Below, one piece after another: positions 23,313-50,815 of a DNA stretch of 64,000 nt. A model generated the notes under the pieces. That model ran no database searches. It was given only the letters and a program-made list of their open reading frames with translations, and had not been told where the DNA came from. Numbering within the stretch: the stretch's first letter is position 1; the number at the start of each line of letters is the position of its first letter. Origin of the DNA: Bacteroides caccae (GTDB lineage: Bacteria; Bacteroidota; Bacteroidia; Bacteroidales; Bacteroidaceae); the NCBI RefSeq assembly GCF_002222615.2, contig NZ_CP022412.2:3968001-4032000 (forward strand), read 5' to 3'. The position numbers were made by a program, and so were the translations under genes.

Positions 23313-23386
23313 GGGGCGTTAGCTCATCTGGCTAGAGCGTAACACTGGCAGTGTTAAGGTGATCGGTTCGAGTCCGATACGCTCCA
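23313..23386 (+). tRNA. tRNA-Ala, anticodon GGC
   Basis: A complete cloverleaf of 74 bases. The acceptor stem is GGGGCGT paired with ACGCTCC and includes the G3-U70 wobble that identifies alanine tRNAs. D-arm GCTC/GAGC, anticodon stem TAACA/TGTTA with loop CTGGCAG (anticodon GGC, codons GCC and GCU), and T-arm loop TTCGAGT are all present. CCA is not encoded; the discriminator A is at 23386. Its 3' end is the apparent integration site of the island that follows. Confidence 0.97.
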
Positions 23387-23389
23387 CTT
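23371..23389 (+). repeat. attL-type repeat inside tRNA-Ala
   Basis: AGTCCGATACGCTCCACTT: the T-arm and acceptor 3' half of the tRNA plus three bases. It is identical to 50793-50811. The flanking bases differ between the copies, so 19 bp is the exact shared length. Confidence 0.8.
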
Positions 23390-23404
23390 ACAAAAGATTT
23401 AAAT

Positions 23405-23428
23405 CTCTGATTTTCAGAGCTTTTTCTT
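23405..23428 (+). terminator. Terminator after tRNA-Ala, probably island-borne
   Basis: CTCTGA (23405-23410) pairs with TCAGAG (23414-23419), followed by CTTTTTCTT. It sits 19 bp beyond the tRNA, inside the island. The terminator at 50816-50849 looks like the original one. Confidence 0.55.
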
Positions 23429-23625
23429 TTTCACTAATGGCTTTACTCCCCACTCAGAAAGCACTATACTTATATTACTTTAACTCTATTCATCCCCCAT
23501 TTCCTAACAAATTAAACTAAAATTCCTTTTTTCGTTCTCATCATCTCTATTTCGAACAGCAATAAAAAAGGGAATGCACAGTAAACTGTATGTCCCCTCA
23601 ATCAATAACTTATTCAAGATTTACC

Positions 23626-24473
23626 CTATAACTTTTCTATTTCCTCTTTAGACAATCCCGTAGCTTGTGAAATTATATCAATAGCTACTCCCAGTTTTTT
23701 TCAGATTACGAGCATTATCCCAATTAGCCTCTTCACGCCCTTCCGCCCTTCCTTCTTCTCGTTCGGTATAGATATTATCACGCAGAATTACTATATTATC
23801 CAAGTGACGATAATAAGCCACCAATTCATCCTTAGTCATGCTATCCAACTTCAATCTCTCCCGTGCCTCTTCAAGCTCTAGAGCTGTAGCACTAGAAGGA
23901 ATCTCACCTGTATTCAAATAGTAAATCCATTCTTCCAACGGACTCTTGGCTATCTGATTAAAGCCATTTACCTTTAAGATATAGTATTCAGGATACAACT
24001 GACTAACTGTATCCACCTTGAATGTTTGCTTTTGAAATGGAGTCAGTTCTAAAATATCCCCTTGATAAATACCCCTGAATTCTGTCTTTCCATGATATAC
24101 GAAGTCCGTCCCATGACCTAATGAGAAATAGACGATATTAATACTATATACTTTACGTACCTTGTCATAACTCTCTCCTCTATTTATATACTTTTAGAAG
24201 TACCGAACAACATACGCTGGAAGTAAGCATATTCATTATTATCCTGTACCTCGATCAAGACAAGCTCATCCTTAGAATTCTCGGCAAGCATATCTACTTG
24301 TCAAACTTATCCTCCTGATTACTTTCACTTTCAAGGAGTTTCTGAATAACAATCTTCTCACCCGGCAACGTAGTAAGCAAACCTTCAAGTACACTAAAGT
24401 TTGCCTTATTCCGGAGCAGACGTTTCATCGCCCAGTCAAAACGAATTATCTGATTATTATTACTATTATTCAT
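23626..24473 (-). pseudogene. Rpn / PD-(D/E)XK nuclease-family transposase, frameshifted
   Basis: The minus strand encodes the parts of a single Rpn-type (PDDEXK_2) protein in order: NNQIIRFDWAMKRLLRNKAN from 24473; LIEVQDNNEYAYFQRMLFGT near 24270-24200; INIVYFSLGHGTDFVYHGKT near 24145-24090; then GFNQIAKSPLEEWIYYLNTG and the C-terminal ATGLSKEEIEKL ending at 23626. At least three lesions break it: a stop near 24297, a stop/frame change near 24195, and a one-base gain in an A-run near 23697. The nuclease core L-I-E-V-Q-D is still readable. These proteins are linked to DNA breakage and recombination and are multi-copy in Bacteroides. Not functional here. Confidence 0.85.
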
Positions 24474-24732
24474 ATTCAATATATTGATTAACACAAAGGC
24501 AAACAAAATGCCTTGTAATTCCAAAGAGTAAAGTACTTTTTAGAATATAAAGCCCCTCAAATACTTAAGAATATAAATATCGATCGAATTAATAATTCTA
24601 TTTAGAAGTCCATGCTAAAATTACACGTCTACTGTGTAGATACAATATTATACAACATACAATTCTCTTTGCTCACTCATTTGCCATAATTCTTCTGGAA
24701 TATTTTTACGCATTTTTTTGAACTGAAATATA

Positions 24733-24805
24733 GAGGATGTAAATTAAACTGTGTCAGCAAAATTAATATTTTATTTTTTGCTGACACAGTTTAATTTACA
24801 TCCTC
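24733..24805. mobile_element. 73-bp hairpin element with perfect 30-bp inverted repeats (MITE-like)
   Basis: 24733-24762 and 24776-24805 are perfect 30-bp reverse complements around a 13-bp AT centre. Each arm begins GAGGATGTAAATTAAACTGT at its outer end, reminiscent of IS256-type ends by recall. A 5-bp ATATA flanks both sides. The element coincides with the breakpoint of the GH20 fragment on its right. In the 260 bp to its left (24474-24732) I see only a short minus-strand reading frame starting MRKNIPEELW, perhaps the start of a lost transposase. Confidence 0.7.
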
Positions 24806-25091
24806 ATATAATCATATTCTTGTCATTCACATCCTGTCCGGATTCCACTTTTAACCGCCTTCCTGTCGCTTCTTTAATGTATCCGGCAAGGAATTGTGTG
24901 TTCCTTTCTAAAAGAATATTATCTTCAAGATAAAGAATGCGGGTATCTTTTTCAATAACAAAAGGATTCCCAGCTACCATTACTATTTCATGTGATAGAG
25001 GAATTACATTCCTATAATCCTCCACCCTTTCTAAAGTATTGTACGCAGCTATAACAACGGATATTACACTTATTGCAATCAGTTTCTTTAT
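24805..25091 (-). pseudogene. GH20 beta-hexosaminidase N-terminus, truncated
   Basis: Reads from a start-like context at 25091, where ATA stands in place of an ATG before Lys-Lys-Leu-Ile-Ala (signal peptide), through VIPLSHEIVMVAGNPFVIEK to GQDVNDKNMII, then a stop formed at the edge of the 73-bp hairpin element. The sequence matches the GH20b N-terminal domain seen in the intact GH20 at 31518 (VIPLPQFISYGRGAF). The whole catalytic barrel is missing and is not found beyond the element. It begins 12 bp after the GH3 gene, so it was once the next gene in that operon. Confidence 0.75.
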
Positions 25092-25102
25092 ACTGTTTCT
25101 GC

Positions 25103-27430
25103 TTAGTCAATATTGGGAGTATCCCAAATTTTGTCTTCTTCACAGTCTATATACAGTATCTCACTACCACATTTCATGCGGAAACGTCCTTGCTCCAACC
25201 GCCATTTTCTATCCTGACCGACAAAAGCCAGGTCGCTTCCCTTCAACTTCATAACAACCTTCTTTGTTTCACCCGATTGTAATTCAACTTTCTCAAAATA
25301 ACGAAGACGGATCACATCTGGTGAAACACTAGCTGCCAAATCACTAGAATACAACAGGACCGTTTCCTTACCTGCTCTTTCTCCCACGTTCTTTACATCC
25401 ACTTCAAATATCAGTTCATCATCCGCATTGAAAGTCGTACGATTCACTTTAAAATTACTATACTCATAGGACGTATAACTTAATCCATATCCAAAGGGCC
25501 ATTGAACATCCATGACCGCATCATAATTATACTCCCCTTCCATAGGTCCCATCTGTTCACACGGCTTATAATCATACGTAGCAAGCGAATTGATGAATTT
25601 CGGATAGGTAAAAGGCAATTTACCGCTGAAGTTCACATCTCCAGCAATCAAGTCAGCCAATGCATCTCCTCCGTAATTTCCCGGCAACATAATATGAACC
25701 ACCGCTTTTGCCAAAGGTTCTATCTCATGAATAATACGCGGCCGTCCTTCGTTCAGAACCAATATTACCGGCTTTCCTGTTGTCGCAAGCCTTCTCACTA
25801 ACTCTTTCTGATTGGAAGAAAGATTCAAGTCATTCAGATTTCCCGGAGTCTCACAATACGTATTCTCTCCTATACAAGCTATTATCACATCCGCCCTACC
25901 GGCAGCAGTAACTGCCTTTCCAATCTCTGGACAATTTTCTTTCCACCAGTTATCATTAGGATCAGCAACATACGTCACTCCCGGTTCATAGATAATGTTT
26001 TCCGTACCAAACTTGTTGCATAATGCTTCATAGATAGTATTATAAGCCTGCGCAAATTCATCCGCCAACTCTCCCTGCCAACTGTAAGACCATCCTCCGT
26101 TGAGACAACGCATAGCATTGGCGTTCGGACCTGCCAACAATATCTTCGTTCCCTTACGTAAAGGCAAAAGTTCTCCTTCGTTTTTCAACAAGACCTCCGA
26201 CTCCCTGGCAGCCTGCAATGCCACTTCTGCAAACTCCCGACTTCCAAACTTGTCATATTTCCGAATATCCCAGTAAGGATTCTCAAACAATCCCAAACGG
26301 AATTTCAAACGTAGCACACGCCGCACGGCATCGTCAATACGTTTCATTGATACAGCCCCTTCCTCAACCAATTCCTTCAAGTCGATACAAAACTGTTGTT
26401 CTTCCGAAGGAATCATTGCCATATCAATACCCGCATTTACAGCCAATCTGATAGCATCTTTCTTGCTGCTTGCAATATGATCGCGAAAATACAGATTATC
26501 AATATCATTCCAATCGGTCACAATCATTCCATCCCAGTTCAAGTCCTCCTTCAACCAGCCTGTCAGTAGCTCTTTATTGGCATGAAACGCCACCCCGTTA
26601 TTATTGGCGGAATTGACCATCAATGACAACGCACCCGCACGGATCGCCGCCTTGAAAGGAGCAAAGTGCTTCTCACGCAAGTCAATATCGGTAATAGAAG
26701 AAGGGGTACGGTCTTTACCGGATACAGGAACCCCATATCCCATAAAATGCTTGATACAGGAAGAAATATGATATTCATCCACTTTATTCAGATTATCCCC
26801 CTGCAAACCACGTACAGCCTGCACAGCCATTTGCGCATTCACATAGGCATCTTCCCCGAAACTCTCCCACATACGCGGCCAACGAGGATCGCGCCCGAGA
26901 TCCATTACAGGAGCAAACGTCCATGGTACACAACAAGCGCGAGTCTCGTAAGCCGTAATCTCCGCACAATACCTAGTTAGTTCCCTATTAAAAGCAGCCG
27001 CCATATTGATGCCTTGAGGAAAATAAGTAGCGTCTTGTGTATATGAAGCCCCGTGAATCTGATCCAAACCATAAATACATGGAATCCCAATTTCTTCCAA
27101 AGATTTCTTTTGAATCTGTGTGATCACTTCTGCGAATACTTCCTTTTTTTGGCTGACTCCGAAGGGAATATTCAGTAACGAACCTACCCTATATTTACCA
27201 ATCACCGTATCCAGTAACGCTTCACTCAATTTATTATCGTTTTTATCTGTCACTGCCCCAATGGTCAGTTCACACATTTGGCCAATCTTCTCTTCAAGGG
27301 TCATGCCTTTAAGCAGTTTCTCTATTTTTCCTTCTATTTCCGGATCTGATGGAATGGCAGGAACCGGTTGTCTTTCAGCACAAGCCGAAAAAAAGCTTCC
27401 AAACAATAAAGTTGTTAATAGTTTTTTCAT
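25103..27430 (-). CDS. GH3 beta-glycosidase, lipoprotein
   Basis: A 775-residue family 3 glycoside hydrolase, probably a beta-glucosidase or beta-xylosidase type exo-enzyme. Lipobox Phe-Phe-Ser-Ala-Cys (Cys17). Domain order is GH3 N-terminal barrel ([10 protein letters not shown], then [17 protein letters not shown]), nucleophile Asp306 in [12 protein letters not shown]3 C-terminal domain with [18 protein letters not shown] and [16 protein letters not shown], and a fibronectin III-like C-terminal domain ([17 protein letters not shown]). It appears complete. Within the island it follows the decayed beta-helix gene and precedes the truncated GH20. Substrate specificity is not readable from sequence. 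Confidence 0.95.
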
Positions 27431-27442
27431 GGTAATTTGTAT

Positions 27443-28003
27443 TTATTTAAATTGTAAATTCTCTATATATGGATTGACAAACAGATATTTTCTACAATCA
27501 GCCTTCTTTATCTGTCTTCCGTTAAACATGACATTATCAAATACCACATTCCGCAAAGGAAACTCACGACTCACTCTCCGCACTTGAGCAGGCAGATATT
27601 TGTCGTCTGTAAAAGTTATATTCCGAAAGACAACTTTGGACAAACTTCCCGTATCTTTACCGTCACTTACTATCTCCACAGCAATTGGTCGTCCGCCATA
27701 CAAGTTCTCAAATTGTATATTCTCGAACGGAATGTCAGACATCCGTCCACCCCACCGCCAAGTTCCTCGTATATGCCAACACATGATTAATAGCCGCACA
27801 TCCTCCTCTCCAGCCCTCATCCCCTTCCTTGTTATCATACAATGTAGGTGTCTCCAATACGATACAGTTTCTAAAAGTCACATTCTGGATATAATCCGGA
27901 CGAGATTCACGAAACGTTCCGCACTCCACGGGTCGGCCAAAAACACATTGGTGCAATCCGTCCAACCCACACAGTTTTCCACCAAAATATCCTCACATCC
28001 TAT
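27443..28003 (-). pseudogene. Parallel beta-helix glycosidase, C-terminal remnant
   Basis: Minus-strand fragments in shifting frames form the end of a right-handed beta-helix protein: ILVENCVGWTDCTNVFLADP (about 27990-27930), YIQNVTFRNCIVLETPTLYD (27890 down), then SDIPFENIQFENLYGGRPIA and VVFDNVMFNGRQIKKADCRK to the stop at 27443. At least two frameshifts lie between them and the N-terminal half is absent, replaced at about 28003 by an IS982-type transposase fragment. The pattern of N-x-x-F-x-N coils fits GH28-like or related helix enzymes; the exact family is uncertain. It ends 12 bp before the GH3 start, hence once in the same operon. Confidence 0.7.
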
Positions 28004-28312
28004 AAAAATAGTCAGTGGAAGTAGTACCTCCTTTTCCAATTCCACAAAACGGTTGTAAAATACACATTGAGGAAACATACCCTTCAAATGCTTGCAGACA
28101 TATTCCTTATAATAATGCTTGAAGCATCTGAAACCTCTAGAATGAAACAGGATAAGAATAACCATTATTTCCGTATCGCTCATACGGTTCAGCTTATTCC
28201 GGTGCTTGCAGTTCTTGTTTTCAACCATATATTTTTTCTGTTGCAATGCAAATTCCTTGCATAAATCATCTGCCATACAATAAATTTCCGTAACTTTAAA
28301 TTTTGGGAACAT
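28004..28312 (-). pseudogene. IS982-type transposase N-terminal fragment
   Basis: Encodes about 100 residues, KVTEIYCMADDLCKEFALQQ, NRMSDTEIMVILILF, then FNRFVELEKEVLLPLTIFI-like text (YNRFVELEKEVLLPLTIFI), the usual opening of Bacteroides IS982-family transposases. It then runs in frame into beta-helix sequence at about 28003, so the catalytic DDE part is missing and the reading frame is a chance fusion. Family assignment is from recall of IS982 N-termini. Confidence 0.7.
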
Positions 28313-28783
28313 AGCGGTAATCGTTTAAACTCTATAATTAGACACTATAAATTTAATACTTTTATCGCTATATGTCTATTATTCAATGAAATATTTATAA
28401 ACTTAGGTAGTCATATACAAAAGAATATATTTATAATTGTTTTGCTCTTAAATCTTCCGACTTTTTTAATTACATATCTATATAAAAACTTTATATTATA
28501 ACAAAATATTTCAACAAGAATTAAGCTGTAAGATTGTACATAGTTACCAAATAATAAATAAATACATAGACATACATTTTGCCAAAACGAGAGAAAAGAA
28601 TGTGTGTCATAATACCCAAATTAAAAAATTTAAGACTGTCTAACAAGGCTCTTCTCAACGATTTCACCCCCTTCTGAACTGAACTCTGACAGAGATTTCT
28701 TTTTTCGGCACTTGTTAGACAACCTCATTTTCATTAACAAGTATTTTTATAAAACCTCTTAATATAAAATTCTACATGAGAAA
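28313..28783. other. 471-bp AT-rich stretch without a gene
   Basis: No credible reading frame. The only structure is an 11-bp inverted repeat, TGTCTAACAAG at 28637-28647 and its complement at 28711-28721, enclosing 63 bp; it resembles paired ends of a lost insertion sequence or a small non-autonomous element. Confidence 0.5.
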
Positions 28784-31354
28784 CTATTTGGTCACCTTGT
28801 AAGTTCCACTTACATACTCCTTTGACTTCATCTCTCCGGGAAGGATTACGGTAGCGATAACGCCCTTAGGAATGGTAAATTCCCAAATCCAGGTGTCCCC
28901 CTCATATTTCCAGGCACTCTTGATGAGTCCGGAGACGGAACGGTATTCGGCAGTCACGTGTCCTAACCGCTTGTCCGGAATAGGCTTCATAATGATATGC
29001 TTGAAGCCAGGGGTGGCGGGATCGGCTGCGATGCCGGCAACGGTTTCCCAAATCCATTCACATACGCATCCGTAGGCATAATGATTGAAACTGTTCATGC
29101 CGCGTGGTCCCATTCCTTTGTCTATCATATAGCTGTTCCACCGCTCCCAAATGGTGGTGGCTCCATTGTCCACAGAATATAGCCAGCTTGGGTTCTTACG
29201 TTGAAAGAGGAGTTCATAGGCAATGTCTTCCATGCCATTCTCCGTAAGGGTGGCCATAAGGATAGATGTGCCTAGGAATCCGGTCTGCAAGCAAAGATCG
29301 TGTTGTGCGAAGTTTTTGCGCAGGCGGTCTATCATCTTCGCTTTGGCTTCGCCTTCCAAAAGCTGGTTCTTCAGGGCGAACAAGGCAGGAGTTTGCATAG
29401 TGTTGAGAATGGCGGTTTTGAAGGTACCGTCCTCATTGAGGAAATTCTCTTTGATGTATGCCTTTGCCGAATCAGACATTTGCTGGTACTTGGCAGCATC
29501 GCGCCCCGTGGCGGCAGCCATATCCCGCATCATGGAAGCATCTATCACCCAATAGGAAGCGCTCAAGTAGTTCCAGTAGCTGACGGCATCAGGAAGCGGA
29601 CCTTGGGGAGAGAAAGCCAGTCCGCTACAACTTTCCAGCGGTTCGTAGCTCAACCAGTCGGCCCATTGGTAGTTACCGTTCTCCCCGCAGAGGGTCTCGT
29701 GGTTATACTTTGTATCGTTGATGTAGTTCATAAACAAATCCATAGCGTTCCAGTTCTCCTCAATGATTTGCGTGTCACCAAATTGTTTCCATACCGTCCA
29801 AGGCACAATGATTCCGGCATCGGCCCAACCCAAACGCATTTTCTCATCGCCGTATTGTGCCAAGGGAGCCACTCCGGGAAATCCGCCCAAACTGTTCTGG
29901 GTGTCGCGCATGTCACGCATCCACTTGTGGAAGAACTTCATAGTGTTAGCAAAGAACGTACCGGTTTCGGCAAACACTTGTGTGTCTGCTGTCCATCCCA
30001 GGCGCTCGTCGCGTTGCGGACAGTCGGTGGGTATAGACAGATAGTTGGATAGCTGCCCCCAATAAGTATTGGAGATGAGCTTGTTCACAAGGTCGTTGCC
30101 TGTAGTGATAGTGCCGGTTTCCAGTTCCTTTGCGATGGAAGTAACGGGAATGGACTTCAACGACTTGATGGCAACATTCCCAGTGGAAGTTATGGAGACA
30201 TAGCGGTAACCGAAGAAGGTGCAGTGAGGATAATAGGCCACATAGTTATCTCCGCTAGCAAAGGTATAATCCAGACGGATACCAGTGTGGGGGATGCGCA
30301 GATTTTCACGGTGGCAACTTCCTTCCGGACCATCCATTCCACGAATCTTGGCGCCGTTGCCGTCATTGAGCAATTCCGCGGGAAGGCAGGTCAGCACTGT
30401 TCCTTCGGCAGCTTTGAATACGAAAGAAGGTACGCTGGCACAATTTTGTCCGAAGTCCACCACTAATGTCTCTCCCGGACTTACGGTCATCTCCGTACCC
30501 GATGCGAACTCACGGGCGATAATCACCTTACCAAACTCATTCTCCTTTGCTCCTTCTACATTCTTCCAAACGTATGCTTTGACAGGAGCGAGGGCGAGAT
30601 CTGTACGCAGATAGACTTCCGCCCCGTCCGAAGGCAGGATATCACCGGAGAATTCGGTGTTCTCTTCGGGTGTGGAGAGTTTGTCCACACATTCGTAACC
30701 CATCGGTTCGCGTGCATCGTACTCTTCTCCGTCAAAGATACCGGCATGTTTCACCGGACCGGCAATTCCGGCCTTCCAGTTTTTAAGATCAGTACCGTAA
30801 CGCTTCTTGTTTCCGTCAGAGAAAGTCAGTTCCAGTACACCACGGAAGGCACATTTCTTACCTATCATGCCGTCATATCCTCCGGGGGTTATGATTTTGT
30901 CACCCCACCATCCCGGCGTCACCTGTACGGAGAGCATATTCTCGGCGTTTGGCTTGGTACGGATGATGTCTGTAATATCATAGGTGAAAGAACGTTTAGT
31001 CTTGGCATAGTGTGTGAAGCCCGGTTTCAGGAATTCCCCGCCTACGGGTTTCCCATTCACATATAACTCGTAAACTCCTAGTCCAGCGGTCATCCACTTG
31101 GCGGAGACAATTTTCTGTTCGTTTTTCACGGTGGACACGAACCAACTCGCGCCATCGGCTGCGCGACCGTTGTTATGTCCTTTCACTACAGGGGCATCTA
31201 CTGCGGAAATCCATTTGGATTCGTTCCAGGCTGATGCTTCCAATGCGTCAGTACGTTTTCCGAATTCGGTTGCGTTTATCAGTCCGCTATTTGAGAAAAG
31301 CTCGAGAATCATTATTGAAATAAGATTCGCAAAACAATGGAGATTCATTTTCAT
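28784..31354 (-). CDS. GH78 alpha-L-rhamnosidase
   Basis: An 856-residue family 78 enzyme from the start chosen at 31354, where a basic and hydrophobic signal peptide begins (MKMNLHCFANLISIMILEL); 24 further in-frame codons upstream look non-coding. The N-terminal beta-sandwich carries the Bac_rhamnosid_N motif GLGVYELYVNGKPVGGEFL and VQVTPGWWGDK. The (alpha/alpha)6 barrel holds the acidic DCPQRDERLGWTAD loop expected for the general acid, WADAGIIVPWTVW, and WERWNSYM near its end. A short C-terminal sandwich domain follows. It lies 163 bp after the GH20 gene on the same strand. Predicted to release alpha-linked rhamnose outside the cytoplasm. Confidence 0.93.
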   Translation of the reverse strand: MKMNLHCFANLISIMILELFSNSGLINATEFGKRTDALEASAWNESKWISAVDAPVVKGHNNGRAADGASWFVSTVKNEQKIVSAKWMTAGLGVYELYVNGKPVGGEFLKPGFTHYAKTKRSFTYDITDIIRTKPNAENMLSVQVTPGWWGDKIITPGGYDGMIGKKCAFRGVLELTFSDGNKKRYGTDLKNWKAGIAGPVKHAGIFDGEEYDAREPMGYECVDKLSTPEENTEFSGDILPSDGAEVYLRTDLALAPVKAYVWKNVEGAKENEFGKVIIAREFASGTEMTVSPGETLVVDFGQNCASVPSFVFKAAEGTVLTCLPAELLNDGNGAKIRGMDGPEGSCHRENLRIPHTGIRLDYTFASGDNYVAYYPHCTFFGYRYVSITSTGNVAIKSLKSIPVTSIAKELETGTITTGNDLVNKLISNTYWGQLSNYLSIPTDCPQRDERLGWTADTQVFAETGTFFANTMKFFHKWMRDMRDTQNSLGGFPGVAPLAQYGDEKMRLGWADAGIIVPWTVWKQFGDTQIIEENWNAMDLFMNYINDTKYNHETLCGENGNYQWADWLSYEPLESCSGLAFSPQGPLPDAVSYWNYLSASYWVIDASMMRDMAAATGRDAAKYQQMSDSAKAYIKENFLNEDGTFKTAILNTMQTPALFALKNQLLEGEAKAKMIDRLRKNFAQHDLCLQTGFLGTSILMATLTENGMEDIAYELLFQRKNPSWLYSVDNGATTIWERWNSYMIDKGMGPRGMNSFNHYAYGCVCEWIWETVAGIAADPATPGFKHIIMKPIPDKRLGHVTAEYRSVSGLIKSAWKYEGDTWIWEFTIPKGVIATVILPGEMKSKEYVSGTYKVTK

Positions 31355-31517
31355 ACTTATATGTAATTTTAGTATTAAAAGATTAACTTGCGAAAGGCTT
31401 GACCATGCCTTCAAGGATTCTTTCATTAGATAGTCCTTCGCCGAAAGTATACTGCATTTACGGTTTTCATGGTCGTATACTTTTACATTATATAATATTC
31501 AGTTCTCCCTTTTTTCC

Positions 31518-37202: not shown

Positions 37203-37208
37203 AATCAA

Positions 37209-40200: not shown

Positions 40201-40295
40201 ACTGTTCCCGTAATGCTTTTGGTCTGTGCCCATATCCCTACCTGTGATGATAGTAAGCAAGTAATTAGCAATATTCGAATAATATTAAATTTCAT
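37209..40295 (-). CDS. SusC/RagA-family TonB-dependent transporter (island locus)
   Basis: A 1028-residue outer-membrane glycan importer: signal peptide ending SQVGIWAQ, carboxypeptidase-regulatory-like domain (SITGTVCDTNGEMIIGANVT), the SusC plug signature MLDDVVVVGYGTTKR, plug domain with FSVRDVSSVNGGSPLVLIDG, and a barrel ending in YFSFGVNLNF. No STN domain. The gene follows an exported lipoprotein gene by 97 bp and is followed directly by susD. The unusual order, with the accessory lipoprotein before susC, is noted under that gene. Confidence 0.96.
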   Translation of the reverse strand: MKFNIIRILLITCLLSSQVGIWAQTKSITGTVCDTNGEMIIGANVTVKGTTKGTITNVYGIYTVSATPKDIIEISFIGYKSVQKKVGNRGIINVVLEEDSKMLDDVVVVGYGTTKRANLAGAVATADQKAFQSKPSATPINALQGLIPGLVVNRSNGQGSRPGDEATFSVRDVSSVNGGSPLVLIDGAEGNINFLNPNDIESVSVLKDAQASIYGNRAANGVVLVTTKSAAKGKVKVDFNAYYAFKTPGRVKEKVNLLQFAEMDREACSDGSDNPVYSEDELDLIRENNDKVVMGGYLGFAKHYQYHDWTKSLLGKSSGLQNYSLNVSGGTDRYNFYVSGFYQSEDSPLKFGHDDSKRYSLRVKNEVKVLENLLFHSNISYTAHDHDFSSAIGTALAWGYRQPPWAPLYTPSGKFYSWQGYGNPAQELEEGGNTLYANAITTFNFALDWNILPELKISGQAILRRQVNDDTTNGGKYAQWNWDDSLNRYNTTENWASRAFSKQWYRNYNVYAEYHKLFAEKHDLKVMAGAQHEEFSYDTFSATRKNFTSDNFNLALGSSKDQETGAATWAETLRSVYGRLSYVYNDRYIVEINGRYDGTSRFAPGHRWGLFTGYSAAWRLSEEDFIKDLNIFDQLKIRGSWGQMGNCQGGIGRYDYIPIINISSDWPYPFNKEEKSQQASSNMVSLARTWEKLEVTNIGLDIAILNNRLSASVDWFYKKNKNMLIAVDYPSLLGATAPASNNGSLEVKGWEVSLAWRDKVNDFSYSVRGNISDSRNKVTNLGGFSGLRSGLISNIQGYSTNAYFGYQSGGIIRDEATLREYKKMKGVPDNLRVGDMMYLDLDGDGAITATGDPKRGYQGDLVYLGTSNPRYNFGLNIDMEWKGFDLSIFFQGVAKRKVVQDGEPLIPFYPDWHYPLSEFYHNTWSADRPNAKYPILTHDDDRNLWNYRTSDNLLVNAAYVRLKNLQFGYTIPRFLTQKIKVDRLRVYFSGNDLFEIDNIPFKYDPEDNGNYSGYPFMRYFSFGVNLNF

Positions 40296-41832: not shown

Positions 41833-41996
41833 ATTCAATAGCTTAAAATTAATAGATATAAAAGTTAACGCTATAAATAATACCGGTATATTAAAAATGC
41901 GAGTACTTCATTTAAGTAGATTTTTTTAATTGCTTTTCACGTGCCCATAATCTTAAATTTTAGCAAGGTTAATATTGATATAAATAATTAATAATG

Positions 41997-42106: not shown

Positions 42107-43869
42107 GGGGCTTCTTCAAATTTGGTGGTATTCCTCTTATTATGAATGCAGAATCTTAGCTCTTAGTAGTTTTATTCCGGCTTTGTTGAACATTTGTCTT
42201 TTGACCGCTTTAATTTTATTCACTGGTCTCCCAGTAATCCGTTACTGAAGGGGACATCAATGACTGCCTGTACTGTCTCCCTGTCTTTTTTCAATACCAT
42301 ATGCAAAGTTCGTCAGTGCCATGTTACGTGTTGCATTCGCTTTTTCAATCTATTTTCTAATATCCTTATCATAAGTATTCCCATTGATCATACCTCTGAA
42401 ATTCGTACATACGTTTAAAAATTCTTTAATCTATGGTGAGGACTTATACAGTTCCGCTAGTTTAGAATTATCCGATTTTCCCTTTAGAATGTATTGGCAT
42501 ATCTGATTCTGTGAAACTCTCTGTATTTTACTTCTGTTTTCAATTCTCTCATTATGCTCCTTGACTTCCTTCCTCTTTTGGTGATACATTCTTCGCAAGC
42601 CAGATGCTATCCTTCCAATAAGTGCCCCACTGATTTTACTCCCCATTTTTTGCCAATATTTTCCGGTTAATACAACCCGCACTAATGATTGTAACCAGTT
42701 CGGATACATATTTAAGAGCAGTCTTCTGTTTCCCATTCAAGTATGCTCCTATTCTTCTGTTGTGAATGTTCTTATAAATGTAGCAGCTTTTCTTGCCCAA
42801 ATGTGTGGCTGTATGCTCAATGATCATCCCCTGCATTTTTAAATTCAGACTTTCCCTGTATATCCTCAATTTTTCTCTGTGTCGGGCATCTCCCATGGTA
42901 AATATGTTCTGGAGAATTAACGAAGAAGCCGTATCTCTGTCAGGATATTCATATTTGAGCTTTTACTTGGTCTGACGAATTATTTTCTCTATTTCCGGTA
43001 TCATCGTATCCGTCATATTCTTGATTAGATGAAACCGGTCGCAGATTTGTGTAACACCGGGGATTATTCTGTTTATAGACTCTGTGAAACATCTTCCACG
43101 GTCTCTCATCATATATTGTATTTGAGGATTCCAGATGAGCCAGTTATCAAGTGCTTCTCCGCTTCTATCCTCTAACAAAGCAATAGGTGTCATCTGGCCT
43201 ACGACCACCCCCATATAATCCTTACCTTTTTTATAGGCAAAATCATCAATACCCACATCAATACTTTTTATTATGCATTAGAAGATTATGTTGCCCGTAC
43301 TGTTGTAGGATGCGTAAGCAGGAAGAGCTACTGACCGTTATATGAAACAATTGCAAAAGAAAAGAAACCTTTCGGAAGGTAAGTTTCAAGCTTATCGATC
43401 TGATGCGTTCCTCAACAAGATAGCTCCGTCTACCATACCGACGAACCAGAAAAGACAATGGTTCGCAGAATATTTTTTACAGACAAGAAACATTGTCACA
43501 ATAATATTTACCAACCCTTATGACTAACTCCAAAGTATGATCGTAAACTTCAAAATCCTGAATATGTTAGGAGTAGCAACTGTGCAATTAGTGACTGAAA
43601 TGTCCGCAATAAGGACAGGAAGCCCCCTTGCCGGCCGTATATAGAAAGACCGTCAATGAACCAACATCTTCAGAGATACCATCTTGTTGTAGATTATCGT
43701 AGCCAAGACTGAATCTGAAATTATGGAATAATCCCCTATTTTCGGGGATTTTCTTTTTATATACCGGGAAAATTACAGTTTCTCACTGGGGAACAATTCC
43801 TTGACCGTGAGGAAAAAGAGGTGAGGCTAAGAAATAAAAAAAGATTATCACCAAATTTGAAGAAGAACC
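42107..43869 (-). mobile_element. ISL3-family insertion sequence, degenerate
   Basis: Ends are imperfect inverted repeats of about 23 bp: GGGGCTTCTTCAAATTTGGT starting at 42107 and a complement of GGTTCTTCTTCAAATTTGGT at the right end (to 43869). This fits ISL3-type ends and gives a length of 1763 bp. The 8 bp outside each end do not match, so the insertion site has been rearranged or eroded. The single gene inside is a transposase pseudogene. Confidence 0.75.
42140..43745 (-). pseudogene. ISL3-family transposase, multiply frameshifted
   Basis: Minus-strand text runs in order through an N-terminal zinc-finger stretch (GASCPYCGHFSH near 43600), a DNA-binding part (SFLVRRYGRRSYLVEERIRS near 43440), the DDE core start VGIDDFAYKKGKDYMGVVV (43256 down), RDRGRCFTESINRIIPG with CDRFHLIKNM (about 43100-43010), and the C-terminal GLLGDQ.IKLKAVKRQMFNK near 42230-42180, ending at 42140. 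Internal stops and at least four frame changes split it. The family call rests on the IDDFAYKKG and DRFHLIKNM motifs. Confidence 0.85.
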
Positions 43870-43924: not shown

Positions 43925-44370
43925 TTAAGTATATTTCTTATCCAAAACTCCGGTCTGAAACATTCAAGTTCGTCCGCTTCTGTGATGAAGAAGATGAACA
44001 TGATTCACTTTCCCGATAGACACCAAACACTTATCCACACTCAATGTTGCCAATCTTTATAAAAGGTGATTAGTCGAACTGTGCTTCAAATGGCTGAAGC
44101 AACACCTCAAGATAAAGATTTTTCAGGGAACCGCTGAGAACGCTGTCCGAATACAGATTAGCGTGACTATCATCACTTACTGTCTCGTAGCCATTATCCA
44201 ATATGATATGTAACTAGAACGTTCGACATACGAAGTCTTGCAAATTCTGCATATCTCATTAATAAGTAAAACTACTTTGTAAAACATATTAAATAAGCCT
44301 GACTTCAAAAATGTTAAAGTTCTATCTGATCCCCTTATTTCAGTTATTTTTGGAATATCCCTAATCAATA
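43925..44370 (+). pseudogene. IS4-family transposase C-terminal remnant
   Basis: Plus-strand fragments in changing frames: FVRFCDEEDEHD (near 43965), NVANLYK (44043), LVELCFKWLKQHLKIKIFQG then TAENAVRIQISVTIITYCLV (44073-44195), and STYEVLQILHISLISKTTL with PDFKNVKVLSDPL (44224-44340). The order and text match the last third of Bacteroides IS4-type transposases with the E-L-F-F-K-W-L-K-Q-H-L motif. Stops and frameshifts throughout; the N-terminal two thirds are absent. Lies between the ISL3 remnant and the AraC gene. Confidence 0.75.
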
Positions 44371-45255
44371 TTTAGGTCTTGCATATTTTTTGAACTCACT
44401 TGCCGTAACCCCCTCTTTTGTCTTAAAAAACAAAGAAAAATGGCTAACACTATCGAATCCTAATTGATAAGCAATCTCCGATATGGAATCATCCGTATTT
44501 GTAAGAAGCTCCTTGGCCTTACTCAATTTAAGTTGCAATTGATATTGAGCAGGTGAAATTCCGATGTTCTCTTTGAAAGCTTTCCTAAACCATGAATAAC
44601 TAACTCCTAAATCTGTTGCTATTGCTTCCGATGTCTTATTCGTATGTAAGTTTTTCCGCATCATAATTCTTGCCAGATTTATTTTATCCAAAACAGAAGT
44701 ATTAATCCGGCATTGACTTTTATAATACACTTCTCCCAACATATGGCATATAATACTCGCAATAAAAACTGCATATCCGGTACGTTCTTCCTCAACAACT
44801 TCAAGAATATTTGTATAGAGCTCAAGAATAGATTGACTAATACCGATATTCAACAAGGGAGTTGAAGGGGAAAAATAACCATTACGTATCCATTCATCTG
44901 CTCCATCCCCTTTAAAACCCACCCAATATTCAGTCCAACCTGTATTTGCATCCGGTCGGTAGGTATGTCGCTCGCCTGGAAACAACATAATTATCGTACC
45001 TGCAGATACTTTGGTAGTTGCACAAGAATCAGAAGTGAAATACCCACTCCCTGCTACAATATAGACAAATTGATATTCATGAAGTATCCTACCATATCTC
45101 TTAAAGTTATAATTGTCTGGATGTATAGACAATGGATAATGACAACGTGGGGCCACAATCTGATATCCCACTGTAGTACATAAAATCCCCCATTTAGCAG
45201 TATTTGAATAATTAGCAGTCAGGTAGTGTAAAAGGTATTTTTCAGAGTTTTTCAT
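44365..45255 (-). CDS. AraC-family transcriptional regulator
   Basis: A 296-residue regulator: N-terminal cupin sugar-sensing domain (about residues 35-170; YQFVYIVAGSGYFTSD, IMLFPGERHTYRPD, then WTEYWVGFKG) and a C-terminal AraC double helix-turn-helix (ATDLGVSYSWFRKAFKENIG, then ISEIAYQLGFDSVSHFSLFF). The aromatic W-x-E-Y-W-x-x-F motif is typical of AraC members that regulate plant or host glycan genes. It is divergent from the GH35/GH20 genes and 2.5 kb from the susCD operon, separated by IS remnants, so it is the best local candidate to regulate the island locus. Appears intact. Confidence 0.93.
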   Translation of the reverse strand: MKNSEKYLLHYLTANYSNTAKWGILCTTVGYQIVAPRCHYPLSIHPDNYNFKRYGRILHEYQFVYIVAGSGYFTSDSCATTKVSAGTIIMLFPGERHTYRPDANTGWTEYWVGFKGDGADEWIRNGYFSPSTPLLNIGISQSILELYTNILEVVEEERTGYAVFIASIICHMLGEVYYKSQCRINTSVLDKINLARIMMRKNLHTNKTSEAIATDLGVSYSWFRKAFKENIGISPAQYQLQLKLSKAKELLTNTDDSISEIAYQLGFDSVSHFSLFFKTKEGVTASEFKKYARPKY

Positions 45256-45316
45256 ATTGTATCAAATTTATAAAAAGATATATCAAAAAATAACACATAT
45301 AACCATAGTGTATTTC

Positions 45317-45324
45317 TAACTTTG
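45317..45324 (+). promoter_or_regulatory. -7 promoter box of the GH35/GH20 genes
   Basis: TAACTTTG on the plus strand, about 130 bases before the GH35 ATG. It overlaps the region of a divergent box (45330-45337) serving the AraC gene, an arrangement suited to shared control. Confidence 0.45.
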
Positions 45325-45329
45325 TATCG

Positions 45330-45337
45330 CAAAATTA
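45330..45337 (-). promoter_or_regulatory. -7 promoter box of the AraC regulator
   Basis: TAATTTTG on the minus strand, 74 bases before the AraC ATG, five bases from the divergent plus-strand box. No -33 match seen. Confidence 0.4.
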
Positions 45338-45454
45338 CATTATACAACAACAACTTAAAAGAAATAAGTATTAAAAAATATTGCAAAAGTATATTTTACA
45401 ATCCAGCAATCATTCCATAATACTTCAAAAGTGATTAAGCTTTTTATTTAAAAT

Positions 45455-46468
45455 ATGAAATTGATAAAAGTATTCTTTCTAATAGTGTTTATACTATGTT
45501 GCGAATTAACATCAGCCCAGCAACGTTTTAAAATAGAAAATGGTTCTTTCCTCATTGTTGGAAAAAGGACACAACTGATTTGTGGTGAAATGCATTATTC
45601 GTGTATTCCTCACGAATATTGGAGAGACCGTTTGAAAAGAACAAAAGCAATGGGATTAAATACCATATCTACTTACGTTTTGGGGAATTTTCATAAAAGG
45701 CAACCAGATATTTTTGACTTCAAAGGTCAAGCTGATTTATCTCATTTTATAAAATTGACACAAGAAGAAAGTCTTTATGTATTATTACGTCCAGGCCTCT
45801 ATGTATGTGCGGAATGGGACTTTGGAGGATATCCTTATAGGCTCTTAAATGAAGAAGGTATGGTTTTCCGAAGTAGAAATGAACACTTTTTAAAAGCATG
45901 TGAAAGGTATATTATGCGATTGGGAGAAGAACTATCTTCACAAACTATTAACCGAGGGGACAACATCCTCATGGTACAATTGGAGAATGAATATGGTTCT
46001 TATGGCGATGATAAGATATATCTGAGTGCTTTAAAAAATATGATTCAAAAAGCAGGATTCGACATTCCACTTCTCACATGTGACAGAGGAGGGCAAATAG
46101 AAGCCGGTCATCTTGAGGGAGTATTTCCTGCTATCAATGGAGTCTTAGGAGATGATATTTTAAGATTGTAGATCGATACCAAAAAGGTGGTCCCTATTTT
46201 ATTGCAGAATTGTATACGCTGATAATGAACAAACAGATAAAAATATTGGCATAGCTGAAAATCTAATAGATAGCGACATTTCTTCTTTTTGGCATACGAG
46301 TCCAAATAAACCGGGACATCATCCACACTGTATAATCATTGACATGAATGAAATATATAAAGTAAAATCTATCCGCCTACCTTCACGTGAAGGCGCATTT
46401 TTAACGGGAATAGTTCGTGACTTCCGCATTTACGCACGTCCTCAATTTTTCTTATTTAAATCTATTTA
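45455..46468 (+). pseudogene. GH35 beta-galactosidase, internally deleted and frameshifted
   Basis: Begins as a normal exported family 35 enzyme: signal peptide, LICGEMHYSCIPHEYWRDRL, LLRPGLYVCAEWDFGGYPYR, general acid Glu179 in VQLENEYGSYG, LTCDRGG. A frameshift near 46160 ends the frame at 46171; the next text, VDRYQKGGPYFIAEL, is in another frame. After about 46215 the sequence jumps, again out of frame, to a C-terminal F5/8 type C (CBM32-like) domain, IGIAENLIDSDISSFWHTSP and IYKVKSIRLPSREG, ending at 46468. The nucleophile Glu and most of the enzyme (some hundreds of residues) are deleted. Three bases separate it from the GH20 start. Not a working enzyme. Confidence 0.85.
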
Positions 46469-46471
46469 GCC

Positions 46472-48211
46472 ATGAAAAAAGTATTATTTATATGCGTTAC
46501 AATGTTATTAATATGTATCTCAGGAAAGGCTACCGAGAGGAACCTTCTTCTTATTCCATATCCACAACAAGTATCAATAAAACAAGGTAACTATAATCTA
46601 ACAGACAACGTAAAAATAGGAGCAGATCCGCTTTTTACACAAGAACTGAAGAAACTGCAAGAGGTACTCACAGAAGACTTCGGATTAAAATCCCAAATAG
46701 TAAAACCTTCCAAAGCTGATATTTCTCTTTGCTACGATGCTTCCTTCATGCAGGAAGAAAAAGAAGCCTATCAGTTGGAAGTAACTGACATGAAAATAAC
46801 TATCCGCGCCCAAATGGCAACGGGCATATTTTACGGCATTCAGTCGTTGCGCCAACTTATCAAATCGGAAGCAGGAAAATGGATAATCCCAAAATTGACC
46901 ATAACTGACTATCCTGCACTTTCGTGGCGTTCATTTATGTTGGACGAAGGACGTTATTTTAAAGGAGAAAAGGTAGTAAAGCAAATTCTGGATGAAATGG
47001 CTTTGCTAAAGATGAATGTGTTTCAATGGCACCTGACCGATGATCAAGGTTGGCGCATTGAAATAAAAAAATACCCTCGTCTCACGGAAATCGGAGCATT
47101 TCGCGACTCTACCCAAATGGAATGGTACGAAAGTCACCATTACGACGGCAAGCCACATGGCGGATTCTATACCCAGACACAAATCCGTAGTATTATAAAA
47201 TATGCTTCCGAACGACATATAACTATTATTCCTGAAATTGAAATGCCCGGTCACAGTGCTGCTGCTATTGCAGCTTATCCTTGGTTAAGTGCAACAGGAA
47301 AAGAAATAAAAGTACCCTGCAATTTCGGAGTTCAATACGACGTGTTCAATGTTACAGATCCGAAAGTTTTGAATTTTCTTAATGATGTCATAGATGAAGT
47401 GACCACGTTATTTTCCTCGGGAATATTACATATTGGTGGAGATGAAGTTCGGTATGACCAATGGAATGCATCATCTTCTGTCCAAAAATTTATTCAAGAA
47501 AAAGGATTTTCTTCCGCTTCCGACATACAAGTATGGTTCACAAACCAAATGTCGAAAGTAATTGCTCAAAAGGGGTGGCGTATGATGGGGTGGAATGACA
47601 TTACAGGCGAAAAACTACACCACTTTCAAAGCGGAGATAAAGAAGGAACCGAACGTTTAGCACCAGGTACTATCGTACAATTTTGGAAAGGAGATTCCGA
47701 CATACTGCAACGTACTGCCGAACAAGGGCAGCATATAGTCAACTCTTACAACAATTTTACCTACTTAAATTATAGTTATGAATATGATTCTTTACAAGCG
47801 ACATACGAGTTCAAACCTATTTCATTGCAACGTGCCTATGAATTCAAGCCTGTACCGGAAAACTTCCCAGTACATTTAGTTCCTCAAATTCTCGGAGCCA
47901 GTTGTCAGATGTGGGGAGAATGGATCCCCACTGTAGAAAGTATGAACTATCATATTTACCCTCGCATAGGTGCATATGCAGAAGTTTTTTGGACGCTCCC
48001 AATACAAAAAGATTACGTCCGTTTCCGAAAATCATTAGAGTATTTCCTGACACGTTGGAAAAAACAAGGAATTATTTATGGTCCCACAAGAAACAACCAA
48101 ATTCATTCCACACAACAGACCAACATCGAATTTGGAATCCCTGATGAATATAATGATCCCTACCGATATATCACCGGAACTTCAGACAAAGCTTTGTCTA
48201 TTGGAAATTAA
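46472..48211 (+). CDS. GH20 beta-N-acetylhexosaminidase (second intact copy)
   Basis: A 579-residue exported GH20. Signal peptide to about residue 19 without a lipobox; GH20b domain (LLLIPYPQQVSIKQGNYNL); barrel with NVFQWHLTDDQGWRIEIKKY and catalytic Asp324-Glu325 in ILHIGGDEVRYDQW; WGEWIPTVESMNYHIYPRIG near the end. The barrel is whole. The C-terminus (after about residue 540) may be eroded: the downstream sequence in another frame, and LamG-like text near 48390-48606, suggest that a longer protein has lost its C-terminal module. It lies downstream of the GH35 pseudogene, divergent from the AraC gene. A third GH20, truncated, is at 24805. Confidence 0.9.
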   Translation: MKKVLFICVTMLLICISGKATERNLLLIPYPQQVSIKQGNYNLTDNVKIGADPLFTQELKKLQEVLTEDFGLKSQIVKPSKADISLCYDASFMQEEKEAYQLEVTDMKITIRAQMATGIFYGIQSLRQLIKSEAGKWIIPKLTITDYPALSWRSFMLDEGRYFKGEKVVKQILDEMALLKMNVFQWHLTDDQGWRIEIKKYPRLTEIGAFRDSTQMEWYESHHYDGKPHGGFYTQTQIRSIIKYASERHITIIPEIEMPGHSAAAIAAYPWLSATGKEIKVPCNFGVQYDVFNVTDPKVLNFLNDVIDEVTTLFSSGILHIGGDEVRYDQWNASSSVQKFIQEKGFSSASDIQVWFTNQMSKVIAQKGWRMMGWNDITGEKLHHFQSGDKEGTERLAPGTIVQFWKGDSDILQRTAEQGQHIVNSYNNFTYLNYSYEYDSLQATYEFKPISLQRAYEFKPVPENFPVHLVPQILGASCQMWGEWIPTVESMNYHIYPRIGAYAEVFWTLPIQKDYVRFRKSLEYFLTRWKKQGIIYGPTRNNQIHSTQQTNIEFGIPDEYNDPYRYITGTSDKALSIGN

Positions 48212-48606
48212 TGCCACCTATAGACATAGAATTGAACTGAATCAATTGAATAATCAGGCAAGCGTTTCTTTTTTTCTCATCTCTGAACGAAAAGTAGTTC
48301 GAAATACCATCTAGGAGCAAAAGCGTTATTAAGTAATAAAAAATTTAATTCCAATAAAAATAAAGGATAACTATTAACCACTCAAAAAATGGTTCCTACA
48401 TGCTATCTGTAAGCAATAGAAATGGAGTACAACATGATTACCGACCAACTGTAGAAAAAACACCCTAAACGAGGGAGATTGGCATCAAATAGGAATAAGT
48501 TTTGATACTACTCGGCAAGAACTTCGCCTATATTATGACAGTCACAATGTAGCCATATATTATACCGAAAGTATAAATAATGCGAATCTATATTTGATTC
48601 ATTAGT
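48212..48606 (+). pseudogene. LamG/concanavalin-like domain remnant
   Basis: The plus strand carries NGSYMLSVSNRNGVQHDYRP (48389-48450), a stop and frame change near 48465, then GDWHQIGISFDTTRQELRLY and DSHNVAIYYTESINNANLYL to a stop at 48604-48606. The G-x-W-H-x-I-x-x-S-F-D pattern is that of laminin-G-like sandwich domains often attached to glycosidases. The first 170 bp (48212-48385) show only short frames. Either the lost C-terminal part of the GH20 before it or of another enzyme. Confidence 0.55.
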
Positions 48607-49436
48607 TAAAAATTAGGGTAATCAATGTGATGGCTATTTTTCCCATCGTGTGTACTAGAAGCCCAGATGTAGATCTGACCTTCATCGCTCTTTGAATATT
48701 TGTTTTTTCATTCAACCAGTTGAACAATTATTCAATGGGTTGTCTGACTTTAGAAACTGCCGTTGAAAACAAGTCTCTTGCCACTTTCTCCCTTTTGGTT
48801 ATTTCAGGTGATTCTCCTTTGATAGCTTTTACAGGAGTAAATAACGAAAGTTTTTTGCATTCTTGCGTCTCTTTATAGAATAGTATATCTGAATATATTT
48901 TATCGGCATATATTTCTCTATTGTTCTGATTTCCCACACCTTACTCTTTTGAATACAATACAGTTGAGTCATTTTCATCCGCAGCGGAAAGTATAAGCAT
49001 TTCAAGAAAAAAGGTATAATTCCTTTTCTACGGAAAGCCACTACATGGAGTTTTAGTCCGAAGTAATATACGTTTTTTGTCGAATAATATCCTCTGGAAG
49101 TAATCTCAGTGGACATCTTTCCTGCTCTGTTCTTTCCCGAGCAAGTAATGATAGGCATTGGGTCGACTAATGATTTCATACTGCCACAATCTTGAGGTTT
49201 GAATGAATTAACAGCCAGACAAGTTCCCTAATTGCTTCTGGCATCAAAATCAATCTATAATTGAATGCTTGGTAAGAAGAAGACAAGTCGAGGAACCATG
49301 AAAGCAGGTATTCCTTGGCAAAAGGATGATTGTTATTACTGAACTTCTGGTAGTAGAATTTGAGTGAAGACTCGTAAACATCGCAGATATACATATATAT
49401 TTTTATAAGTTTTAATTCTTTCTCCTTGAGAATCAT
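48605..49436 (-). pseudogene. DDE-type transposase, degenerate
   Basis: Minus-strand text in shifting frames: LSWFLDLSSSYQAFNYRLIL (near 49300), DPMPIITCSGKNRAGKM with GYYSTKNVYYFGLKLHVVAF (49160-49035), NREIYADKIYSDILFYKETQ (48920 down), LFTPVKAIKGESPEITKREK, VARDLFSTAVSKVRQPIE, then LFNWLNEKTNIQRAMKVRST to a stop at 48613-48615. At least two frameshifts and one internal stop. The general layout is that of a Bacteroides DDE transposase of IS4/IS5/IS982 relatives; I cannot fix the family. Confidence 0.7.
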
Positions 49437-49807
49437 TATTAGAACAACGAGGACTTTATTATTATAATATACTGATTATCAATAAGATTGATAAATAATT
49501 AATGAGATAATTAACTTAATAATAACGTTTTAACAAGCAAAAAGGTAGATGATTGTCAACTGCTGATTCGTATAAATAATTTAAATAGTGGATTTCCTTT
49601 CAATTTAGGAAGCATAGACAGCAGTAAATGGCAAGCTTTCATTGATTACCTTGACCATCTTAGTTTTACAACAAAACTAAATCAGCAGATTGGTTTGCTA
49701 AAGATTTTAAGATATTGACTAACCAAGTACCCTAGAATTATCAATTACGTCCAAGCAATTAAGCATTATGGGATTCAACATTTATCATGAATTGAAAAGA
49801 AGCATTA
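49437..49807. other. 371-bp stretch, eroded coding traces
   Basis: No complete gene. A plus-strand open stretch without ATG (about 49545-49719) encodes SSKWQAFIDYLDHLSFTTKL then NQQIGLLKILRY before a stop; it looks protein-like but I cannot assign it with confidence. The remainder is AT-rich. Confidence 0.35.
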
Positions 49808-50596
49808 TTAAAACTCTGGATAATATATATATCTAGCTCTATCTAAGTACTCTTTACTTTTAGGAAATTGGAAAGATGCAAAATGGAGTAATTCTTTATA
49901 TTTCAGAAAAGTAACTTCTTTTTTAGTCACAGTTAAGTTTACCTTACAGTTGAGTACTCCTTGTCCTACAGGATAACCATTGGCAGCAATCCATCTAAGA
50001 AAAGATTTTAATATTCTGAATTGTTTTACAGTGGTACGATTACGATATCCATTCTTCACGTAGCATTTTTTTAATTCTGTCATTTTATTCTCATCAAGTA
50101 TCACTAGAGAAATGTCTGGATCACAGCTATTTAATTGATTCCATACTTGAACATATTTGTGATGTACAGATCCACTCCAACTTCTTTCTATAGAACAAAC
50201 TTCTAAGAAATCATTGAAAATTTCACGAAAAGATTTTTCTCTCTCTATTGAACCAACTACTACTATCTCCTTTTCTATTCTCCCCAGCTTCTCATTAACC
50301 AACTCTTTTGTGGTAGGGATTTGGGAATGTACACCATACTCTGTGAAAGATTCTTCAATACATTCCAAAAATTGAGAAATGCGATTATTAATATCACGGG
50401 CAACATATACCTTTCCACCAACTTTATGAGTAGTGTTGTATCTGACTCTCTGGTTCTCATTATCCCATTTTTCAAGATCAGCATTGCAACCTACAGAAAA
50501 GCCAACTTCACACTTCCTGTTATTCCATCTGACGCGAATCATAACCTGTCCGTTCTTGTGTAGAAAAGCTCTACAACTGTGACTAATTCCCATCAT
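49808..50596 (-). pseudogene. Tyrosine recombinase (island integrase), catalytic domain lost
   Basis: A 262-residue reading frame holding the N-terminal arm-binding region (FLHKNGQVMIRVRWNNRKCE, VGFSVGCNADLEKWDNENQR), and a SAM-like core-binding domain (FREIFNDFLEVCSIERSWSG to ILKSFLRWIAANGYP) of a Bacteroides tyrosine recombinase. It stops just after EYLDRARYIYYPEF, where the catalytic domain with Arg, His-x-x-Arg and Tyr should begin; none is found in the other frames downstream. It starts 197 bp from the right-end repeat (50793) and reads inward, so it was probably the enzyme that inserted the island. The loss would lock the island in place. Confidence 0.85.
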
Positions 50597-50650
50597 ATAT
50601 CTTACTACTTTATTTGTTATTTTGGAGCAAATTTAGAAAGAAAAAATCGT

Positions 50651-50685
50651 GGGGAGTAAGCGTCTATTTCTACTCCCCCTTTTTT
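50651..50685 (+). terminator. Rho-independent terminator near the island right end
   Basis: GGGGAGTA (50651-50658) pairs with TACTCCCC (50671-50678), followed by CTTTTTTT. It is oriented to stop plus-strand transcripts, although no plus-strand gene lies directly before it; it may shield the integrase promoter region. Confidence 0.6.
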
Positions 50686-50792
50686 TGAGCGTACATGATT
50701 TTATGTGCTATAAAAAGATGCAATTCGCCACATACATTACTGATCTACAATAGTATACAAAATTAATCCAAAGCAATTGTGGTCAAAGCTAT

Positions 50793-50811
50793 AGTCCGAT
50801 ACGCTCCACTT
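50793..50811 (+). repeat. attR-type repeat: partial tRNA-Ala 3' end
   Basis: AGTCCGATACGCTCCACTT, identical to 23371-23389. Only the 3' end of the tRNA is present; the preceding sequence does not fold as a tRNA. Confidence 0.8.
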
Positions 50812-50815
50812 CTTC

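Follow-up and report, generated by a model that had tools for sequence, protein, structure and literature searches.

How does a glycan-utilization locus come to lie between the two ends of an integrative element behind an intact tRNA gene, and how did that element lose its integrase? We examined this question in a stretch of 64,000 nucleotides from Bacteroides caccae (RefSeq assembly GCF_002222615.2, contig NZ_CP022412.2), which covers bases 3968001-4032000 of a one-contig genome of 4.57 Mb and is referred to here as the window. An earlier note, made from the sequence alone, had proposed that a whole SusCD locus entered at tRNA-Ala(GGC) as the cargo of an integrative island, which was then fixed by decay of its integrase. 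We find that bases 23388-50811 are a site-specific integrative island. We tentatively read it, with a rough probability of 0.4, as a mosaic in which a SusCD locus with an intact core and worn edges lies between the two ends of a tRNA-Ala element; the element would have delivered the locus with its edges already worn, and a deletion with one break would have followed. The boundaries are set by the following features (G numbers denote genomes used for comparison):

23313-23387, plus strand: tRNA-Ala(GGC), the target gene, still complete (ARAGORN)
23371-23389, plus strand: left attachment core of 19 bp, of which 17 bp are common to G093 and G059
23405-23432, plus strand: terminator-like hairpin with T-run, element-borne and the same in G059 (fold -9.4 kcal/mol, z -2.4)
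50793-50811, plus strand: right attachment core
50812-50860, plus strand: native terminator of the tRNA, now beyond the island (homologous to the sequence directly after the tRNA in G107; fold -17.5 kcal/mol)

The 19-mer AGTCCGATACGCTCCACTT, which is the 3' end of tRNA-Ala(GGC), has just two exact copies in the window, at 23371 and 50793. Even when up to 3 mismatches were allowed, the 17-bp core was found at the same two places only, at a chance expectation of 0.09 matches. The sequence AGTCCGATACGCTCCAC is common to the right cores of the window, G093 and G059, and the bases beyond it are each chromosome's own. The hairpin borne by the element folds more weakly than the native terminator that it displaced (-9.4 against -17.5 kcal/mol). 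The share of sequence covered by open reading frames (ORFs) of 200 aa or more is 70% in the island, 89% in the left flank and 88% in the right flank.

Flank searches covered 149 genomes of the genus, including the one that holds the window; the left flank with the tRNA was matched in 138 of them and the right flank in 37. Stretches around the tRNA or the right flank were fetched from 13 other genomes, all of other species. The site is empty in five of these 13 (G107, G091, G001, G012 and G086), where the tRNA continues directly into a homologue of the sequence at 50793. Each empty locus contains a single core copy, with one mismatch in G091, G012 and G086. The clearest case is G107, in which the left-flank homology stops at its base 2081 (window 23389) and the right-flank homology starts at 2063 (window 50793), so that the 19-base overlap of the two is the repeat itself. 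One alignment extends to window 51196 in G091, and at the other four empty sites the terminator is separated from the next homologous stretch by other sequence, about 0.5 to 1.6 kb long. Three hallmarks of a tRNA island are present, namely insertion at a tRNA 3' end with direct repeats, an uninterrupted site in relatives and an integrase, here truncated, at one end.

These results bear out most of the anatomy given in the earlier note: the exact 19-bp duplication of the tRNA 3' end 27.4 kb away, the integrative island at tRNA-Ala and, in five genomes of other species, the predicted alignment of a tRNA running directly into the 50793/terminator sequence. Neither of the outcomes that it had named as speaking against an island was seen, as the 149 genomes (two candidates scored per genome) contain no close copy of the SusC/SusD region and the five empty loci no second core. 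Its statement that nearly all pseudogenes and insertion sequence (IS) remnants of the window lie inside the island is supported at the level of coding density only.

In a further four of the 13 genomes the tRNA is occupied by the left end of the element, which follows the tRNA directly in G093, G009 and G044 and comes after a 47-bp copy of the tRNA end in G059. When 158 genus genomes were queried with the sequence around the right core, only three had matches that extend across the core from the side of the integrase, namely the genome of the window itself, G093 and G059. Neither an empty site nor the left end of the element was found at the tRNA in G111, G021 and G082. The tRNA-Ala site is used repeatedly. 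G128 possesses a different integrase immediately after tRNA-Ala (L109:711-2375) and a 47-bp copy of the tRNA end farther along (L110:80-126); a 47-bp copy is present in G059 too. It seems that this tRNA is also the target of a second integrase family. At G001:C50:19014-19136, away from the empty tRNA-Ala of that genome, lies sequence with 87% identity to the element's right end. Gene sizes had raised the suspicion of a second utilization locus at this tRNA in G021 and G128, but in G021 Pfam identifies a cluster of sigma factor, FecR, TonB receptor and peptidase S46 genes instead; the gene sizes in G128 are similar.

At the right end of the island, next to the core, lies what remains of the integrase:

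49808-50596, minus strand: tyrosine integrase truncated to 255 residues (homologous from 49827 onwards)

This ORF of 262 aa has no Pfam or NCBIfam match when searched alone. Larger frames in G093 (92%), G042 (84%), G059 (83%) and G012 (67%) align with it over their first 258 residues. The integrase genes of G093 and G059, two other species, are intact, adjoin the same right core and encode 455 aa, with SAM-like and catalytic domains in the G059 protein. The DNA homology ends at 49827, a position which we take to fall before the catalytic motifs of the intact integrases, in agreement with the proposal that the tyrosine recombinase beside the right copy has lost its catalytic domain. Among the 120 relatives listed when the G093 integrase was queried against 5.8 billion proteins, two intact metagenome integrases of 452 residues (P0130 and P0132) are identical to the remnant in all 255 residues before the break, and nine more of those listed (P0123-P0129, P0131 and P0133) agree with it at 252 to 254 of 256 positions. 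Compared to G093, the remnant shows a ratio of non-synonymous to synonymous substitutions (dN/dS) of 0.030/0.121 over 255 codons. This pattern argues for a single break near 49830 that would have cut the integrase, rather than for slow decay.

Between this break and the neighbouring IS982 remnant lie 237 bp (49590-49826) that have no match in the 149 genus genomes; one frame of this segment resembles a recombinase core-binding domain by eye, without Pfam support. At L064 ~2470-2500 (G042) and L066 ~2450-2500 (G012), the end of the element meets sequences that look, again by eye, like the 3' ends of other tRNAs, although ARAGORN called none in those short loci. Hence, the integrase family may have changed its target.

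Other broken genes and remnants in the island are:

23600-24540, minus strand: PDDEXK_2 gene with a broken frame at the element's left end (homologous at the DNA level to G093 and G009; the intact G093 gene is PF12784; two 10-bp deletions)
27443-28324, minus strand: broken ORFs with an IS982 N-terminal trace (28001-28180); remainder beta-helix-like by eye, without Pfam support
42434-43782, minus strand: ISL3-type transposase remnant (extent judged by eye; the Pfam match spans 42966-43277 only)
44070-44210, plus strand: weak scrap of a DDE_Tnp_1 transposase (E 0.0035)
48573-49589, minus strand: rotted IS982-family element (89-90% to copies in G057, G086 and G128)

The two 10-bp deletions of the left-end gene are present relative to both G093 and G009. 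Its longest piece reaches 86.5% identity to the best of 120 relatives listed, a list drawn with the G093 protein, so that closer ones may exist. Of 824 bases compared, 73 differ between the IS982 remnant and the intact G057 copy; the codon changes are 39 non-synonymous and 25 synonymous, and there are two in-frame stops and five indels. The integrase remnant is clean, whereas rot is plain to see in the IS982 remnant and the left-end gene, so the integrase was probably lost later than the interior became worn. A recent rearrangement would then have cut the integrase of an island whose interior was already rotted. We also considered whether two IS982 copies had formed a composite transposon around the locus, but found no support for this, as the two traces share no DNA similarity and cover different parts of the transposase profile, and the left trace does not match the G057 copy either.

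The remaining interior is occupied by the glycan-utilization locus:

24807-25106, minus strand: weak GH20 N-terminal fragment (E 0.029, below cut-off)
25103-27430, minus strand: GH3 (Pfam)
28784-31426, minus strand: GH78 alpha-L-rhamnosidase (Pfam)
31518-33155, minus strand: GH20 (Pfam)
33152-35431, minus strand: second GH78-type enzyme (Pfam)
35535-37208, minus strand: SusD (Pfam)
37209-40295, minus strand: SusC (Pfam)
40393-41838, minus strand: ORF of 481 aa with a weak DUF4625 match below cut-off
44365-45255, minus strand: AraC-type regulator (Pfam)
45455-46466, plus strand: broken GH35 (profile 1-182 of 319), followed by an F5/8 piece
46472-48211, plus strand: second GH20 (Pfam)

Pfam thereby recovers the SusCD locus with GH78, GH20, GH3 and AraC genes that had been described between the two copies, and adds that both the GH78-type and the GH20 enzymes are two in number. 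SusC adjoins SusD and carbohydrate-active enzymes accompany them, as is characteristic of a polysaccharide utilization locus. Judged by its sequence, the core of the locus (SusC, SusD, GH78, the GH78-type enzyme, both GH20, GH3 and AraC) is intact and its edges are worn. The enzyme families suggest a glycan containing rhamnose and N-acetylhexosamine as the substrate.

The SusCD locus is rare in the collections searched. The best-scoring match to the SusC/SusD region elsewhere in the genus spans 250 bp at 70%. The best identity of SusD is 48% in 393 sampled genomes of the order (three candidates per genome, strict E-value limit) and 43% in a named genome collection (Arenibacter), and 74% is the highest among the matches listed from the database of 5.8 billion proteins. 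Of 39 loci compared from the named genome collection, 38 matched both SusC and SusD, four matched GH20, one matched GH3 and none matched either of the GH78 genes.

The relaxase family PF03432 and the TraG family PF19044 were searched across eight whole genomes, of which G059 is 71% complete. Neither family matched in the island, on the G093 contigs C19 and C22 or on the G059 contig C12; other relaxase and transfer families were outside this search. For these two families, the earlier statement that no transfer genes remain is therefore correct, but the word "remain" may mislead: as they were not found on the G059 and G093 contigs with intact integrase either, the element may never have had transfer genes of its own. 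Within the same limits, the island shows neither the relaxase and conjugation machinery that mark an integrative and conjugative element nor, for PF03432, the relaxase that an integrative and mobilizable element combines with its integrase. The element family may depend on other elements for transfer.

The G059 element measures 26.4 kb between its cores. Ten ORFs scanned in this region comprise the integrase, a UvrD-type helicase, DUF3871, pentapeptide and leucine-rich repeats and a weak ParB-like match, with five lacking a Pfam match and none matching SusC or SusD. G093 has DUF3871 close to the left end of its element, and a D5-type primase lies ~5 kb away from its integrase. The two element ends are on different contigs in G093, C22 and C19 (L102-L106), which reflects either a rearrangement or an assembly fault. 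A large G093 island formed by the left end on C22 and the integrase end on C19, together more than 90 kb, was not retained: C19 carries homoserine dehydrogenase and LptF/LptG genes farther on, hence this contig extends beyond the element. For the idea that the element is a phage, we saw no support among its relatives. No relative of the G093 integrase turned up in a scan of viral contigs, and this integrase is less than 60% identical to all 41 matching phage records and to the matching plasmid records alike. A PHROGs comparison of eight G059 proteins and two G093 proteins (relatives and not the island's own) returned integrase, helicase, primase, weak ParB-like and unknown-function matches, and no structural protein.

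How could these parts have come together? In the mosaic reading, an integrase targeting the 3' end of tRNA-Ala(GGC) would have recombined the element core AGTCCGATACGCTCCAC with the tRNA, an enzymatic step expected from the integrase family, whereas its anatomical outcome is directly visible. Integration would have restored the tRNA and left it followed by the hairpin of the element, with the native terminator shifted to the opposite end of the island. All that remains of the backbone is its two ends, the left one with the broken PDDEXK_2 gene and the right one with the first 255 integrase residues. The element would have brought in the SusCD locus with already worn edges, and a later deletion with one break near 49830 would have taken the other backbone genes together with the catalytic half of the integrase. 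It is this break, rather than slow decay, that would have locked the island in place.

Several observations weigh against the mosaic. No live element with this SusCD locus was found in the searches of the genus, the order sample or the protein database. No backbone genes of the relatives were recognised between 24556 and 49811, which a splice-in of the locus would explain equally well. The comparisons of IS982 and of the integrase have different reference points and share no common clock, and P0130 and P0132 are known as proteins alone. Lastly, GC content, which in tRNA-targeted islands differs from that of the chromosome, does not set the island (39.0%) apart from the left (42.3%) and right (38.6%) flanks of the window, so that the island is not visible from composition alone.

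A serious contender, which we would still bet against, turns the order of events around. Here, an old and worn glycan block recombined into a resident tRNA-Ala element that had a working integrase and other cargo, an event that would also have removed the backbone in exchange and truncated the integrase, such that the locus was never moved by the integrase. Clean integrase sequence meets worn DNA exactly at the break, as this would predict, but a deletion inside an element bearing the locus gives the same junction. The integrase family occurs with other genes in G059 and is common in the protein database, in which SusD is at most 74% identical to any match listed; moreover, GC content at third codon positions ranges from 0.26 to 0.56 within the locus, in keeping with a mixed origin. 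Against this, no copy of the block was found elsewhere in the 149 genus genomes.

The original proposal, that the whole utilization locus entered as cargo and that decay in place, including that of the integrase, fixed the island, appears distinctly unlikely to us. It accounts for the matching ends, the truncated integrase and the many broken genes between them. However, the integrase remnant is unchanged in 255 residues compared to two intact proteins and has a reduced dN/dS, unlike the adjoining rotted IS982 remnant, which speaks against fixation by decay and points to one break. Of the proposal as a whole, the integrative island stands and the decay is not supported, and for the entry as cargo no copy of the locus in a live element was found.

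Quite improbable is a transfer of the whole tRNA region with its island from a donor strain by homologous recombination in the flanks, without any integration in this lineage. Such conjugal chromosome transfer is proposed for Bacteroides in passages of PMC8845570 as a mechanism that swaps loci of this kind and needs no element genes, but it adds a step and still requires the original integration, and no donor-like flank was seen, although no search aimed at one was made. That the 19-bp repeat is a coincidence and no island exists, for which only the unremarkable GC content speaks, has practically no chance given the 0.09 matches expected even with 3 mismatches, the homology in G107 that breaks exactly at the repeat on both sides, the intact integrases bordering the same core in two species and the contradicting empty sites.

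To the right of the island, we noticed an intact tyrosine recombinase (51452-52390) followed by a segment of 283 bp between inverted repeats of 25 bp (52398-52422 and 52681-52705, 24 of 25 bases) and, beyond it, a DUF4988 protein (52766-55387). The arrangement at 51452-52766 looks like a recombinase-controlled invertible promoter. Among 189 loci compared, the inverted-repeat arm is present only in two copies of the window's own region.

It is textbook knowledge, as outlined in parts of PMC2704930, that genomic islands occupy tRNA 3' ends, with repeats of 16-20 bp and with functional or cryptic integrases. The island resembles the tRNA-targeted islands described there in its insertion at a tRNA 3' end, its repeats, the integrase at one end and its IS remnants; it differs in that its cargo is a glycan-utilization locus and its integrase is truncated and located at the end far from the tRNA. 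Excerpts of PMC6907783 report 47 SusC/SusD loci on mobile elements in one survey, and those of PMC8845570 and PMC5849685 place porphyran and agarose utilization loci on conjugative elements. Like the loci in these three sources, the SusCD locus studied here is bounded by features of mobile elements, but it lacks a match to relaxase PF03432 or TraG PF19044 and most of its backbone is gone. Our literature search combining tRNA-Ala, Bacteroides, genomic island and integrase found no paper. NBU1 is a small integrative and mobilizable Bacteroides element with a tyrosine integrase; the island is likewise integrative with a tyrosine integrase, but unlike in NBU1 no mobilization gene was found in it (PF03432 searched).

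A utilization locus in a tRNA-targeted element is a kind of gene transfer already known, of which the island is a further case. What the island adds is the stage: a worn locus with an intact core between the ends of an element family that has intact members, with an integrase that was seemingly cut so recently that the remainder still equals intact proteins. Passages of PMC8845570 consider that elements targeting core genes such as tRNAs may deliver glycan loci and later lose their mobile DNA, and the island fits this idea without proving it. Differences between Bacteroides strains in glycan use often reside in gene blocks without mobile genes. The island may be a snapshot of loci losing their mobile signature, in which a family without conjugation genes of its own delivers or captures a block at tRNA-Ala and loses backbone and integrase in one or a few recombination steps, a generalization that we consider unlikely, if not strongly so. 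If it is true, a little more erosion would leave a locus like many strain-variable loci that lie between core genes without mobile DNA. Since two element ends, an empty site in relatives and identical intact integrase proteins are at hand, the proposed intermediate stage would be directly testable in strains of one species.

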